DNA of 34,516 nt from an uncultured Candidatus Saccharibacteria bacterium. Lineage in GTDB: Bacteria > Patescibacteriota > Saccharimonadia > Saccharimonadales > Saccharimonadaceae. The notes beneath the pieces are model-generated. The model had not been told where the DNA came from and ran no database searches. It was given only the letters and a program-made list of their open reading frames with translations. Each line of letters starts with the position of its first letter. The first letter of the stretch is position 1. A program made the translations under genes and the position numbers. The stretch is taken from NCBI GenBank assembly GCA_946186455.1, contig CAMHNK010000007.1:1-34516 (forward strand). Reading direction: 5' to 3'. Of this stretch, positions 4,233-34,401 are shown one piece after another.

Positions 4233-4670
4233 TCAGTGAGCGTAGGCGATGTTCTGCTCCATCGCTTGAGTTTCGAGAGCGGCAAGGCGCTCGGCATCAT
4301 CGATGGCGGAGTTTACAGAGTGCTTAACACGTGCACGTTCTTCGGCTTTTTTAGCATCGTTCCAGCGATCAAGCGTACCGACGAGATAGCCGGTGATGCG
4401 GCGAAGGCGTTCAAATTTGCCTTCATCGAAGTATTCGGCGTACTCTTCGAAATACTCTTTAGCAGCTGCTTCGCCCTTTTTCTCGGCGATGAGTCTCATG
4501 CCAACTTCAACAAGGCAGGAGACGTGCATGGTTTCATATTGTTCGAAATCTTCGAGTGCAGCAGCGACTTCTTTTTCGCTGACTTTGGCATACCTTTCGA
4601 GCGATTTCACGAAACGCTTGATGTCGAAAGTGCAGGCATCATTCGGATTTCGGTAAATGATTTTCTTCAT
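4233..4670 (-). CDS. Small standalone protein resembling the C-terminal glycyl-radical region of class III ribonucleotide reductase (NrdD)
   Basis: 145 aa containing LRRITGYLVGTLDRWNDAKKAEERARVKH, matching the NrdD C-terminal glycyl-radical motif R-x-x-G-Y...K-x-E-x-x-x-R-V-K-H; no large catalytic domain attached. Confidence 0.65.
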   Translation of the reverse strand: MKKIIYRNPNDACTFDIKRFVKSLERYAKVSEKEVAAALEDFEQYETMHVSCLVEVGMRLIAEKKGEAAAKEYFEEYAEYFDEGKFERLRRITGYLVGTLDRWNDAKKAEERARVKHSVNSAIDDAERLAALETQAMEQNIAYAH

Positions 4671-4725: not shown

Positions 4726-4754
4726 ATTATATACACTATATATGGTGGTGTCAA
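4726..4754 (-). promoter_or_regulatory. Consensus sigma70-type promoter (TTGACA-N17-TATAAT) with embedded NrdR box
   Basis: Minus strand TTGACA CCACCATATATAGTGTA TATAAT; the spacer contains ccaCcATATATaGTGT (NrdR consensus acaCwAtATaTwGtgt, 14/16). Confidence 0.8.
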
Positions 4755-4790
4755 GGGCTTTTTAACACTAAATGTGGAGTTTTTCCACAA

Positions 4791-22157: not shown

Positions 22158-23951
22158 ATGAATATTTTGATAGTGGGCAATGTCTTAAAGGACGTTTATC
22201 TTAATTTTGATAGCCGAACGGCTGACTTTGAAATTGACAGACATAATGTTAAGTGGTTAAACGTCGGGTTTAATGCATCTGAACACTTTTTTTACAGCCG
22301 ACATTCGAGCCTCGGTGGCGCCGCGGTAACGCTCGATGTGCTCAAGAAAATGGGGATTGAAGCGAGGATTTCGGCATCGAAACTGAAACTTGAAGAAGAT
22401 GATAAAGGGATTGAGGCGGCGTTTTACCGCTATATCTTAGTGTCCGATGAAGGAGTGTCATATCTCGCGCCGATTCAAACGACCGATTCCCTGTTTGCTT
22501 CGCCGATTAATCCGGTGGACTACATTTTTGTGGATCGCTCGGCACATTTGTCACAGAAGGTGGCTGAGAAAATTGCCTCATTTCTAGATGAACATAGAGA
22601 AACCAAATTCGTGGCTTACGTAAAGAAGAATAATAAAGATCCATATCTAAAGGAACTAACTAACCGGGCGGATTTGTTGTTTGTGGAATCGATGGATGGA
22701 ATCGAACATGAGAATGTGATTTTGATTTCTGATAGTGAGATTTCGTACAAAGATATTAAAGAGACGGTTTCGATTGAGCGCGTGGATAAACTTACGCACC
22801 TGTCTGCTTATTCGATTATGGCAGCAACGATTCTTGGTGGTTTTGTACTCGGTGAAACCGTGGAGGAGAGCTTAAGAATGGCTAAGGCAAATGTTGAGAA
22901 TTCGAATCTAGATTCAGTGCTAACGCTTGAGGAAATGAAGAATCTCGCGACGATGCCAGCTGAAAGCATTGAACTGATTGCAGCGAGCCTAGTAGCACCA
23001 AAGAAAGGAATTCTCGCGGCAGATGAATCGGGTGGCTCAATTAAGAAGAAGTTCGCGGAACTGGAGATTGAAGATACGTTTGAGAACAGGCATGATTATC
23101 GCAATATCTTTCTTACGACGCCAGACCTTGAGCAGTATGTGAATGGCGTGATTCTCTTTGACGAGACAGCGCGCGACAAGACTGACAACGGTATGCCGAA
23201 CGTAGACTATCTGATTTCGAGAAGGATTATTCCAGGAATTAAGGTTGATCAGGGGCTCGAGAAGTTTGAGAATTCGGAAGAGACTTGGACGAAGGGCTTA
23301 AATGATTTACCGGAGAGACTCCGCGAATACTATGGTATGGGGCTCCGATTTGCGAAGTGGCGCGCAGCATTTAATCTAACACTTGATGAAAATGGCGAGG
23401 TTTTGACACCAACGGAGCATGCGATTAGTGAGAACTGTAAGATTCTCGCTGAATATGCGAAGGACTGCCAATCGGCCGGGCTGGTGCCAATTGTGGAGCC
23501 AGAGGTGGTTTATGATGGGTATTATCCGATTGAGAGAAATATCGAAGTGACGAGTAGGATTCTCGATTGCCTCTTTGACGAGCTCGAAAATTTCGAAGTG
23601 AAACTCGAGGCGTGTGTCTTAAAGGTCAACATGGTGCTCGCCGGAAAGAAGTTTGAAACACAGTCGACACCGGAAGAAGTCGGCAAGGCGACGGCAGATG
23701 TGTTAAAGAATCACGTGCCAGAGAAACTGGCTGGCGTAGTATTCTTGTCGGGTGGACAAACGGTCGAACAAGCCACGGCCAACCTCGGTGAAGTGATTAA
23801 AAATGGTCCGTTCCCGTGGCCAGTGACGTTCTCGTTTGCAAGAGCTTTGCAGGACCCAGCGCTCTATGCCTGGCATGGTGATATCAATAACGCTGAAGAG
23901 GCGAAGCAGGCCTTCAAAGAGCGTCTAATCGAGAACACGAAGGTTTTGTAA
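22158..23951 (+). CDS. Fusion protein: PfkB-like sugar-kinase-fold domain + class I fructose-bisphosphate aldolase
   Basis: N-terminal MNILIVGNVLKDVYLNF...SSLGGAAVTLDVLKKMGI; C-terminal KKGILAADESGGSIKKKF, KWRAAF, VEPEV, ACVLKVNMVLAGK, VVFLSGGQ. Confidence 0.9.
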   Translation: MNILIVGNVLKDVYLNFDSRTADFEIDRHNVKWLNVGFNASEHFFYSRHSSLGGAAVTLDVLKKMGIEARISASKLKLEEDDKGIEAAFYRYILVSDEGVSYLAPIQTTDSLFASPINPVDYIFVDRSAHLSQKVAEKIASFLDEHRETKFVAYVKKNNKDPYLKELTNRADLLFVESMDGIEHENVILISDSEISYKDIKETVSIERVDKLTHLSAYSIMAATILGGFVLGETVEESLRMAKANVENSNLDSVLTLEEMKNLATMPAESIELIAASLVAPKKGILAADESGGSIKKKFAELEIEDTFENRHDYRNIFLTTPDLEQYVNGVILFDETARDKTDNGMPNVDYLISRRIIPGIKVDQGLEKFENSEETWTKGLNDLPERLREYYGMGLRFAKWRAAFNLTLDENGEVLTPTEHAISENCKILAEYAKDCQSAGLVPIVEPEVVYDGYYPIERNIEVTSRILDCLFDELENFEVKLEACVLKVNMVLAGKKFETQSTPEEVGKATADVLKNHVPEKLAGVVFLSGGQTVEQATANLGEVIKNGPFPWPVTFSFARALQDPALYAWHGDINNAEEAKQAFKERLIENTKVL

Positions 23952-30866: not shown

Positions 30867-32162
30867 TTAGTCGAGGAAATCCCACTCTGAAGTGACGGTA
30901 AGGTCTTTCTCGAGGGCTTCGCCAACTTGAACAGCGTAGAACGGATAGGCAAAGGCATTGTCGGCTGGCTCGAGACGGACTTCAACACGGCGGTAGAGGT
31001 CGTTAGCACGGCCAGTGGAATCGATGAGAACCTGAACGCCGTTAAGAGATGCGAGAGAGGTATCGCCCATTGCGCCACCACCAGCGACGGCAGAGCCACC
31101 GCAATCGACGCCATCTTTACAGATGAATTCAAGCGAGAAGTCGGTTTCTGGTTGACCATAAGGGAGTGAAACGACAAACATGAAGGTGTCGTTGCTGCGA
31201 GCGCCACCAAGTGGGTCTGGGAGGTTTAAAGTGGTGGAACAGACATATTCATCGGAAACGTTGTTCCCTGGGCAGTAGACGAGGAATGGGAGATCCTTTC
31301 TAAGATCGTTCGTTGCGGCCATTTGGGCGGCGGAAATTTGGTTGATACCATCTTTGTAGGCGCCCATGTAGGTGGAATTTGAGGTTCTACCAGCGGCGCT
31401 AGCGTTAGCGGTTGGGACCATATAAACCGTAGCGCGGTCAGTCCTACCACCGGAGGTTTGGCCATTGAGCTGATCAAGGGTAAAGTTGGCAGCGGTTTGA
31501 ATCATTTCGACGCCGAGAGTCGGTGGAGTGGAAGCGTTCACGAGGTTAAGTGGCTGGAAAACGACTTGATCGGAAATGTAATTTGAGTAATCAAGCACCA
31601 TGGTGCCACCGTTCAAATACCAGTTAACTTTGACGGCTTTGATGTCGGCCGCTTTGGCTTTTTCGAGGTCAACTTTGATGATACGATATGGATTCATCGA
31701 GGAGAGACTAGCACGATAGTCGCTAAGTTTAGTCTTAATAGTGACACAGGTGTAGGCTTGGTTCATTTCGTTGCTACTTGAAGTAGATTCTTCAACTGAA
31801 ACTTCGCCACTTTCGCCATCTTTGATGCGACCAAGGATATGGCCAACCATGTCACAGTTTGGATGATTCATCCAATAGACGATGTCTTGGCAGGTGATTT
31901 CAGCACCGTGAAGGAGTTCGTCTGGATAAGTTGTACCGGAATTGACACAGTTTTGGTAGTTCATGAAGGTGAGTTTAGCATCTTCAACACCAGCAAGAGC
32001 AGCGTCGTAAGCAGATTGGGAAAGGTCGTCGTTTGACGAACGCGTCACTTCTGCCATAATCGCGATGGCAAAGCTCGTAGCGATGACAATTAGAATCAAG
32101 GTTGACAATGCGACAATGTAAAACGACGCAGCACCTTGTTTAAATTTTCTTTTTAGCCTCAT
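30867..32162 (-). CDS. Type IV pilus assembly/minor pilin-like protein (PilX/GspK-like)
   Basis: KFKQGAASFYIVALSTLILIVIATSFAIAIMAEVTRS N-terminus, large exported domain, in pilin cluster. Confidence 0.7.
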   Translation of the reverse strand: MRLKRKFKQGAASFYIVALSTLILIVIATSFAIAIMAEVTRSSNDDLSQSAYDAALAGVEDAKLTFMNYQNCVNSGTTYPDELLHGAEITCQDIVYWMNHPNCDMVGHILGRIKDGESGEVSVEESTSSSNEMNQAYTCVTIKTKLSDYRASLSSMNPYRIIKVDLEKAKAADIKAVKVNWYLNGGTMVLDYSNYISDQVVFQPLNLVNASTPPTLGVEMIQTAANFTLDQLNGQTSGGRTDRATVYMVPTANASAAGRTSNSTYMGAYKDGINQISAAQMAATNDLRKDLPFLVYCPGNNVSDEYVCSTTLNLPDPLGGARSNDTFMFVVSLPYGQPETDFSLEFICKDGVDCGGSAVAGGGAMGDTSLASLNGVQVLIDSTGRANDLYRRVEVRLEPADNAFAYPFYAVQVGEALEKDLTVTSEWDFLD

Positions 32163-33095
32163 CTATCCTCCATTTACCTGAACGGCAAAATTAAATTTAT
32201 TAATCGCACAATAACTATAATTCCCTGATACGATGCCATTTGGAGCGGCGCAGGCATTGCCTTGAGCAACGATGTTAACGCCACCAGAAACGGTACCAAG
32301 GATGAACGAAATTGAATAGAAGGCGTTGTCGCCGTTTTCGGAAACAGCTGGGCGGGCGACGGAAATATCATAGACAGCAAGATCATTGCCATTGTCCGGT
32401 GGAAGCAAGTCGACGATGTCACTTCTTAAGGTACCGTAGCTCACTTCGCTTACATCAAAGACGTTGCTGATGCCACCTTCCGGTAATTCGTAGGATTGTC
32501 CGGTTTTATCGACGGCGGCGAGACAGAAGATGCGAGACTCATCTTGGATACGGAGCAGACGAAATGGCTTTTGACCTGGTTCTGGGTATTCCTTAACAGT
32601 ACCGTTAATAAGATAACGAATCTTAGCCCAGTCGCGATTGGTTTTAGCTGGGAAAACGGCGTTGTCGGCTTCGAAATAACCACTGTTCCAGATGTAAGTG
32701 TAGGAACCAGTACAGAAGGCGCCAAGAATTGGGACTTCTTGTTCGACACCGCTTAAGCGGATTTTAGCGGTTTTGGTGACGGCGACGTAATTTTTAGCAT
32801 TGTCTTCTTCACATTTTTGACGCTCAATTGCGTCGAGTGAAAGACCGGAAGAATAGATATTAGCGTAGCAGCTAGAGATAAGGCCTCTTGCGGATGAGCT
32901 TTGAATCGAGGCACGCATATCATCAACAAGATCAGTACCAGTGGAATTTACACGGCTGAGTTTCATACCACGTTGGAAGGCGGTGACGGTATTAGAGATG
33001 ATAAGGACGATGGAAATAGAGAGCAAACCAATAAAAAGCATGGCTAAAGTTAGCTCAACCAAAGTAAACCCATCCCGGTAAGTCTTCCTAGACAT
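32163..33095 (-). CDS. Type IV prepilin (PilW-like)
   Basis: Prepilin motif DGFTLVELTLAMLFIGLLSISIVLII. Confidence 0.85.
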   Translation of the reverse strand: MSRKTYRDGFTLVELTLAMLFIGLLSISIVLIISNTVTAFQRGMKLSRVNSTGTDLVDDMRASIQSSSARGLISSCYANIYSSGLSLDAIERQKCEEDNAKNYVAVTKTAKIRLSGVEQEVPILGAFCTGSYTYIWNSGYFEADNAVFPAKTNRDWAKIRYLINGTVKEYPEPGQKPFRLLRIQDESRIFCLAAVDKTGQSYELPEGGISNVFDVSEVSYGTLRSDIVDLLPPDNGNDLAVYDISVARPAVSENGDNAFYSISFILGTVSGGVNIVAQGNACAAPNGIVSGNYSYCAINKFNFAVQVNGG

Positions 33096-33133
33096 ACTTA
33101 AATTATATCATAATGCTTATGATTTTTTATAGA

Positions 33134-33949
33134 TTATTTGCAGTGATTTTCGGAGCTGTCTTGGTCAACGATTTCGACGCCGGACGAGTTACGAGCGTTT
33201 CTCACGATGCGAATATCACGACGGAAGGAACCTCTGACGCCCATGCCATATGGATTGACACAGAAGTTGATTTCACCTACATCAAAATAGTCAAGCCGAT
33301 CGGTGAGAAGTTTGCGCGTGCCATCGTAGTTGCCATCGAGACGGGCATTTCTGATAGTTTCATTAACTGGGATGATACGATCCGAAAAGAGCGTATTGAT
33401 GATGCCGGAGCGAGGATGGCGAACGATGAGAATGGAACCTCTGAAATTATTGTTTTCCCCATTTACGAGTGTTGTCCTTTCGATAACAGAACCCCAGGTT
33501 GGCATGTAACTATTGGCATAGCCAGCTGTAGAAACATTGGTAATAACACCACCGGTGACCTCTTCAACGAGGACATTGATATTTAAGGCTTTAAAAGTCC
33601 GAATGATTGAGCCGGTGCCGATGGCATTAGCGTCACCAATCACATCGTAAGTAAAGAAGCGTTGCTCGTCATCTGGAATTCTTTCGCCTTTTAAGTCATA
33701 TTCTTGGCCGAAGACAATGAGCTTGCCATAAATGGCGCGTTCACTACGGCCATCGCTAATTCCCTGTGGGTTGGCAACTTGAGCATAAACGTCACGCAAA
33801 AAGTTCGTGAAGCTTTGGACGGAATCATTATATTTTTGTTGCCAAAGGGAGTTTTGAGTGCCAGCCACAATGCCGACAAACAAAGCACCAGTGAGTGCCA
33901 AAAAGAATGAGATTTCAATCAAAGTAAAACCACGTCGGGCCTTTTTCAT
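33134..33949 (-). CDS. Type IV prepilin
   Basis: Prepilin motif RRGFTLIEISFFLALTGALFVGIVAG; start moved to ATG 33949 on prepilin leader and -10 spacing. Confidence 0.85.
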   Translation of the reverse strand: MKKARRGFTLIEISFFLALTGALFVGIVAGTQNSLWQQKYNDSVQSFTNFLRDVYAQVANPQGISDGRSERAIYGKLIVFGQEYDLKGERIPDDEQRFFTYDVIGDANAIGTGSIIRTFKALNINVLVEEVTGGVITNVSTAGYANSYMPTWGSVIERTTLVNGENNNFRGSILIVRHPRSGIINTLFSDRIIPVNETIRNARLDGNYDGTRKLLTDRLDYFDVGEINFCVNPYGMGVRGSFRRDIRIVRNARNSSGVEIVDQDSSENHCK

Positions 33950-33972
33950 ACTTTTATTATAGCATAAGTTTT

Positions 33973-34401
33973 TTATACATTTGGAAATAGGAACATCATC
34001 CATTTTTCAAAATTGGAATAGTTCTTCTCTACCTTCGTAATGGTGGCGACTTGATGCTTGTTTTTGGCGGTTTCGGAGTTTGGTTCAAGATAAACCATGT
34101 GCTCACCCGGGAGTTGCTTGTTGGCGAGACGGCGAGCGGCGAGCTCTTTATATTCGTCGGTTTTGTAGTATTCGTTCTCGAGTTCAGCGGTTTCGACTTC
34201 GATTTTTAAGAGTTCAAGGGATTTCTTGTCAGCAGAGAGGCGCTCGGTTAATTCCCAGTTTCTAGACATGGCCTGGATAGATTGGTAGGTCCAGGTCAAA
34301 CAGAGAGCAATCGCAATAATTAAGACCACATTTTCGATCGTAAAAAAACCGTGCTTAAGAATATACCGGAGTTGTCGCAACTTGGTCCTAAACGCGTTCA
34401 C
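33973..34401 (-). CDS. FtsL/DivIC-like septum formation initiator
   Basis: One TM, coiled coil LSADKKSLELLKIEVETAELENEYYKTDEYKELAARRLANKQLPGEHMVYLEP; GTG start. Confidence 0.65.
   Translation of the reverse strand: MNAFRTKLRQLRYILKHGFFTIENVVLIIAIALCLTWTYQSIQAMSRNWELTERLSADKKSLELLKIEVETAELENEYYKTDEYKELAARRLANKQLPGEHMVYLEPNSETAKNKHQVATITKVEKNYSNFEKWMMFLFPNV

Follow-up and report, generated by a model that had tools for sequence, protein, structure and literature searches.

A protein of 145 amino acids (aa), encoded by an uncultured Candidatus Saccharibacteria bacterium, very probably serves as the subunit that carries the glycyl radical in a class III ribonucleotide reductase (RNR) split between two genes. 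Its gene lies in a stretch of 34,516 nucleotides from contig CAMHNK010000007.1, which was analysed as a whole and is referred to here as the window. The assignment is based on the identity of the loop, the loss of the loop from NrdD, the lack of another RNR in the genomes searched, the co-occurrence of the two genes, the order of events, a shared NrdR-type promoter and purifying selection.

The 145-aa ORF (4233-4670, minus strand) contains LRRITGYLVGTLDRWNDAKKAEERARVKH. The preliminary description of this DNA had taken it for an NrdD-type radical domain that stands alone, without the catalytic domain or a CxxC pair, and the profile searches bore this out. Residues 85-117 matched positions 532-562 of PF13597 (NRDD) with 29.9 bits (E = 3e-7), which is above the curated cut-off of 26.2 bits, and NCBIfam NF011292 (E = 1e-12) and NF005497 (E = 5e-11) were likewise matched at their C-terminal ends. 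Positions 1-531 of PF13597, corresponding to the catalytic barrel, were unmatched in the ORF. A CxxC pair is absent from it, and its only cysteines are at residues 13 and 53. The PFL-type glycyl-radical domain PF01228 gave no match to the ORF. Gly94 aligns with Gly711 in the structure of Prevotella copri NrdD (8p23, chain numbering offset by 4), and Gly711 is the radical glycine of that enzyme (PMC11226230). In an alignment of 88 relatives, the radical glycine and nearly all of F86-H117 were invariant. Thus, two of the checks named in the preliminary description, NrdD similarity in a profile search and conservation of the glycine among relatives, gave positive results. Judged from its sequence, the NrdD-type loop in this ORF is far beyond chance, and the initial observation is confirmed. 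The features of the locus are collected in Table 1.

Table 1. Features of the standalone gene and its upstream region (positions of the window).
Feature	Position	Strand	Basis
Standalone glycyl-radical protein, 145 aa	4233..4670	-	ORF; NRDD positions 532-562; NCBIfam NrdD C-termini; alignment of 88 relatives
N-terminal domain (residues 1-84); fold predicted as ATP-cone-like, KRDG nucleotide-binding signature lacking	4419..4670	-	AlphaFold2, Foldseek
Glycyl-radical loop, residues 85-117 (KFERLRRITGYLVGTLDRWNDAKKAEERARVKH)	4320..4418	-	PF13597 532-562; aligned with P. copri NrdD radical loop; pN/pS 0.05 (rough) in split clade
Gly94 codon, predicted radical glycine, equivalent to P. copri NrdD Gly711	4389..4391	-	Alignment; invariant in 88 sequences
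C-terminal tail, residues 118-145, predicted helix; variable, absent from some relatives	4236..4319	-	Alignment, AlphaFold2
Sigma-70-type promoter TTGACA-17-TATAAT, perfect	4726..4754	-	12/12 matches
NrdR-like box 1 (ACACTATATATGGTGG), within promoter spacer	4733..4748	.	Best NrdR-like site in window
NrdR-like box 2 (ACACTAAATGTGGAGT), its start 32 bp from that of box 1	4765..4780	.	Pair score

The window's assembly (G000) comprises 706,831 bases and is 83% complete. A six-frame search of the whole genome revealed one NrdD (profile positions 2-529) and one separate loop (532-562), the latter being the window ORF. Core and loop are therefore present once each, on different genes in separate loci, and no intact copy was found elsewhere in this genome. 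The truncated NrdD has 731 aa and ends in ...CPHCGRLEGDVPFEKVCNCAKGK, just past the zinc-site cysteines. The break is sharp: the truncated protein stops at ...DPVCGFSGIIKGERCPHCGRLEGDVPFEKVCNCAKGK exactly where intact relatives go on with ...FERLRRITGYLVG, and the nrdG gene overlaps nrdD, its start being placed on the nrdD stop codon. The ATP-cone is retained (E = 9e-23). Also kept, and invariant in 16/16, are both active-site cysteines (the thiyl Cys426 and one on a beta-strand), the NxN flap and the zinc cysteines. A large subunit of class I or class II RNR was found in none of 18 genomes of genera g1 (the genus of the window) and g11; given the 83% completeness of the window's assembly, a second RNR outside the assembly is conceivable there. 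The preliminary description had pointed to the genome's own nrdD as a check, and the sole NrdD found has no glycine loop of its own. Consequently, the standalone protein is the only source of a radical glycine in the window's organism.

Two further observations concern the cysteines of these enzymes. The zinc site of the g1 and g11 NrdDs, e.g., L001:1447-3642 on the minus strand, has three cysteines (DPVCG...CPHCG) compared with four in P. copri, and this three-cysteine site is common to the intact and the truncated forms. Extra cysteines in the tails of truncated NrdDs (CNC, CGC and the like) were dropped from consideration as they are not conserved.

The rest of NrdD might be hidden by an intron, a frameshift or a misassembly, as some phage nrdD genes are interrupted by introns or other insertions (PMC3653736). 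We rejected an intron or frameshift at the break because nrdG starts on the nrdD stop codon and because the break is common to about 90 species. The truncation is identical in 91 genomes of genus g1, and the standalone gene has its own N-terminal domain, its own promoter and a distant conserved locus, so that the chance of an artefact of assembly or annotation of any kind is practically negligible.

The distribution of the separate loop was determined in two samples. In the family sample of 151 genomes, it was present in two genera, g1 and g11, and the class-wide sample of 394 genomes gave strong full-length matches again within these two. A survey of 175 g1 genomes, most of them metagenome assemblies, assigned NrdD by profile coverage and best E-values as truncated in 91, intact in 72 and unclear or fragmentary in 12. 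The standalone gene was detected in 87/91 genomes with truncated NrdD and in 25/72 with intact NrdD (Fisher p = 6e-18). The four genomes with truncated NrdD in which it was not seen are 71-92% complete, and these exceptions are therefore probably assembly gaps. In genus g11, NrdD is intact and mostly accompanied by the standalone gene as well. All of 27 further assemblies, including Ca. Nanosyncoccus alces, combine a truncated NrdD with a separate loop; they were picked via the standalone loci and thus bear on the state of NrdD, not on co-occurrence. Apparent internal stop codons in some standalone genes of intact-NrdD genomes were considered as a sign of decay and rejected, since they merely shorten the C-terminal tail and leave the loop intact.

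This distribution also bears on the idea that the loop protein serves some other glycyl-radical enzyme, or that it binds NrdG as a regulator or decoy. In principle, NrdG could be occupied by a free loop. A decoy, however, leaves unexplained why loss of the NrdD loop occurs only where the standalone gene exists. As for another client, no PFL-type enzyme was found in 13 genomes, where the few PF01228 matches were all inside NrdD reading frames. We regard both variants as extremely improbable.

To establish the order of events, a quick tree was built from 66 NrdD cores with the loop region excluded. All truncated NrdDs fell into one clade, in agreement with a single change (SH-aLRT 99), and the nearest neighbours of this clade were intact NrdDs accompanied in their genomes by the standalone gene. 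The truncation thus arose once, within lineages already holding both an intact NrdD and the standalone gene, and the latter is older than the loss of the loop. Apparently, what began as a GrcA-like spare part is now the obligate carrier of the glycyl radical in a split class III RNR.

The preliminary description had proposed a spare part or regulator similar to GrcA. Its idea of a detached NrdD-type radical subunit holds, but here the protein goes beyond a spare part or regulator, being the sole source of the radical glycine. A role confined to repair would mean that the protein only mends oxygen-cleaved NrdD, as YfiD/GrcA does for pyruvate formate-lyase (PFL), and is no standing subunit. Coexistence with intact NrdD, as seen in g11 and in 25 genomes of g1, is the state expected of a repair part, and the proteins YfiD and Y06I provide the precedent (PMC8683613). 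The NrdD of the window's lineage lacks a loop that could be mended and such a role is inapplicable there, which makes repair alone an unlikely explanation of the protein as a whole. It may well apply to the relatives with intact NrdD and to the ancestor; the state imagined for a spare part is seen in these relatives and not in the window's organism.

In the split lineage, the standalone gene sits between polA and mutM-holA, and it is located elsewhere in the intact lineages and in g11. The polA-mutM-holA neighbourhood pointed out in the preliminary description is thus real, but its conservation is limited to the split lineage, and taken alone it offers no clue to function. In the split group, the N-domain of the standalone gene had a pN/pS of 0.20, the loop one of 0.05 and the NrdD core one of 0.08; these ratios are rough, as synonymous sites are saturated. 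Both genes are clearly maintained under purifying selection.

The promoter of the standalone gene was compared among the relatives. It has 0-1 mismatches to the sigma-70-type consensus in 62/62 relatives of the split group versus about 3.4 in shuffled sequences, and at most one mismatch also in 17/17 relatives with intact NrdD plus the standalone gene. A palindrome of the NrdR-box type lies within the promoter spacer of the standalone genes, and the start of a second copy is 32-33 bp from the start of the first. For scoring we used a letter consensus which we take to be that of the NrdR box. The pair in the window scored 26/32, the next best pair in the window 21, and the maximum in 20 shuffles was 21. 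The boxes are separated by a spacer of 16 bp in the window and 16-17 bp overall, and NrdR binds box pairs with a spacer of 14-17 bp (PMC12051234). Paired boxes were found upstream of nrdD too, with 61/66 loci at or below 1 of 50 shuffles. The standalone gene and nrdD share the NrdR-type promoter architecture and are predicted to belong to one NrdR regulon. The nrdR gene is present in 15/16 genomes; it was not found in the incomplete G000 (83%), where the NrdD cone was the sole match. The phage homologues of the standalone gene have no paired NrdR boxes. The predicted regulatory link to RNR is the NrdR-box promoter, not the polA-mutM-holA neighbourhood.

One may also suppose that NrdD is decaying, i.e., that the truncated enzyme is dead, deoxynucleosides are taken up, and the loop is a leftover or otherwise employed. 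These bacteria have reduced genomes, and 91 of the 151 family genomes gave no NrdD match. Nevertheless, strong purifying selection acts on both the truncated NrdD and the standalone loop over a saturated synonymous divergence, the catalytic residues are all kept, nrdG overlaps nrdD, and NrdR-box promoters precede both genes. Moreover, the truncated NrdD and its standalone partner are retained together in about 90 species. On these grounds we consider decay very unlikely.

The N-terminal domain was analysed with the use of predicted structures. In the AlphaFold2 model of the window protein, the mean pLDDT was 78, with about 83-94 for residues 10-80. In the model of a phage homologue, which shares 44-52% identity with the other aligned rows, residues 1-70 mostly exceeded 86. 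Foldseek searches against the PDB returned RNR or NrdR chains as the best 20 matches of the window protein, nearly all of them ATP-cone proteins (NrdR, NrdB, NrdD, NrdA; class I and class II/III included), and likewise as the best 42 matches of the phage homologue. For both models, the Foldseek probability of the ATP-cone matches was up to 0.99, yet the E-values were 0.02 or worse. In a Pfam search of the 88 family members, PF03477 (ATP-cone) was not among the matches listed, hhalign gave a probability of 3% for ATP-cone homology, the PDB profile search was also without a match, and the KRDG signature occurred in 0/88 aligned rows. ATP-cone homology at the sequence level was therefore rejected; a cone-like fold is suggested by the predicted structure. 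On the models, the N-terminal domain may be an ATP-cone-like docking domain, and the whole protein would resemble an NrdD minus the barrel. The C-terminal tail is lacking in 124-aa versions of the protein (L264, L265). The radical loop was modelled at low confidence, as expected of a part that folds into a partner.

We propose the following mechanism for the split enzyme. The ATP-cone, the zinc-site cysteines and the catalytic barrel, in which the thiyl cysteine resides, would come from the truncated NrdD, and the standalone protein would contribute the loop with the radical glycine Gly94. The two proteins would associate physically, the ATP-cone-like N-terminal domain docking on NrdD. The radical on Gly94 would be installed by NrdG, encoded beside nrdD. 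Once charged, the loop would enter the barrel of NrdD, where its radical would be transferred to Cys426, and catalysis, here in trans, would proceed as in a one-chain NrdD. Oxygen damage may be cheap in this arrangement: with the glycine carried by a small protein that can be exchanged, a cut at Gly94 would sacrifice only 145 aa, not a 731-aa enzyme.

The same family of about 140 aa was found in four viral contigs (L178:2998-3405, L179:2998-3414, L180:2998-3417 and L181:2998-3411), the two longest of which have 80 and 86 kb. A terminase gene lies near the family member in L180 and L181, the latter also having a dihydrofolate reductase gene nearby; no NrdD was found elsewhere in the four records. 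A second scan gave 80 viral loci (L270-L349), in which 73 loop-bearing ORFs were short, about 41-170 aa, e.g., L302:4001-4129 and L345:4001-4117. Many of the viral contigs with loop-only genes come from the gut. The NrdD core was absent from 30 of the 31 whole viral records (28-95 kb) searched, records that may be fragments. In several of the short viral loop ORFs, the N-terminus is rich in cysteines and reminiscent of the NrdD zinc site. The one record with a core is L309. At L309:1-2973, an nrdD core of 760 aa (profile 1-531), a gene for a loop protein of 62 aa and nrdG form one operon in which each gene overlaps or adjoins the next, with an ATGA overlap; from its predicted genes, this is a second class III RNR with a separate split, and it differs from the Saccharibacteria type.

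Other records were of a different kind. In a 49-kb viral contig (L334:250-925), nrdG is directly followed by a short glycyl-loop gene. The standalone loops at L199:2-259 and L200:3941-4291 have a different, strand-rich N-terminal part; both records are filed as phage, have bacterial-looking neighbours (galE-like, metK) and look like chromosomal fragments. In Eggerthella phage EL753P1 (L202:3741-7169), nrdD is followed at a distance by a fragment beginning in the middle of the loop (TGYLVG...), which is unannotated as such and looks like the 3' exon of an intron-containing gene. EL753P1 and L195 were set aside as standalone loops since they resemble intron-split nrdD exons. The tiny 'Bacteriophage sp.' loop records were rejected as phage evidence because several hold a full NrdD or resemble bacterial fragments.

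We lean slightly towards the view that a detachable radical subunit of class III RNR is a general, unrecognised device. It would comprise chromosomal spare parts of anaerobes, the obligate subunit of Nanosyncoccus, the operon of nrdD core, loop and nrdG, and the loop-only genes of many gut phages, which would swap a fresh loop into the host NrdD during infection.

Two other regions of the window were noted by eye. An ORF of 597 aa (22158-23951, plus strand) appears to join a PfkB-type sugar kinase to a class I fructose-bisphosphate aldolase, and a run of ORFs at 30867-34003 (minus strand) has type IV pilin-like N-termini (GFTLVEL, GFTLIEI) and resembles a pilus or competence cluster.

In gut Saccharibacteria, half of an essential enzyme for DNA building blocks is seemingly supplied by a different gene. 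The enzyme appears to have permanently passed its radical to this second gene, and the intermediate state is still visible in relatives. Glycyl-radical catalysis in trans becomes directly testable in an RNR, and a natural two-part system becomes available for NrdG activation and loop motion. It also points to a possible reason for the presence of loop-only genes in phages of anaerobes. By 2021, two spare-part glycyl radical proteins had been validated, both for pyruvate formate-lyase, and spare parts for other glycyl radical enzymes were raised as a question (PMC8683613). We found no description of a trans glycyl-radical subunit of class III RNR in the open-licence literature.

The closest known proteins are YfiD/GrcA of E. 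coli and Y06I of phage T4, which are likewise small, combine a copy of the enzyme's C-terminal loop with an N-terminal extension, and exist in chromosomal and phage versions. In contrast to the PFL-type loop (PF01228) of YfiD/GrcA, the loop described here is of the NrdD type, and the part is obligate because the enzyme in the window's lineage has lost its own loop. In addition, the N-terminal domain is predicted to be folded and ATP-cone-like, whereas it is disordered in YfiD (PMC8683613). Canonical NrdD, exemplified by the enzymes of P. copri (8p23) and phage T4, has the same glycyl loop, ATP-cone, barrel, thiyl cysteine, NxN flap and NrdG partner. It is, however, one chain; in the Saccharibacteria enzyme the break falls after the zinc-site cysteines and before the glycine loop, whose gene is at a distant locus. 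A similar division is known from the split class II enzyme NrdJa/NrdJb of Pseudomonas aeruginosa, in which a C-terminal function resides on a separate small subunit needed in vivo (PMC4520616); NrdJb delivers reducing equivalents, but the detached part described here would carry the radical itself. RNR genes in pieces also occur in phages, where nrdD and nrdA are split by introns, inteins and homing endonucleases (PMC3653736). Those are interrupted genes with adjacent pieces, whereas the loop of the Saccharibacteria enzyme is encoded by an unlinked gene with an added domain and its own promoter.
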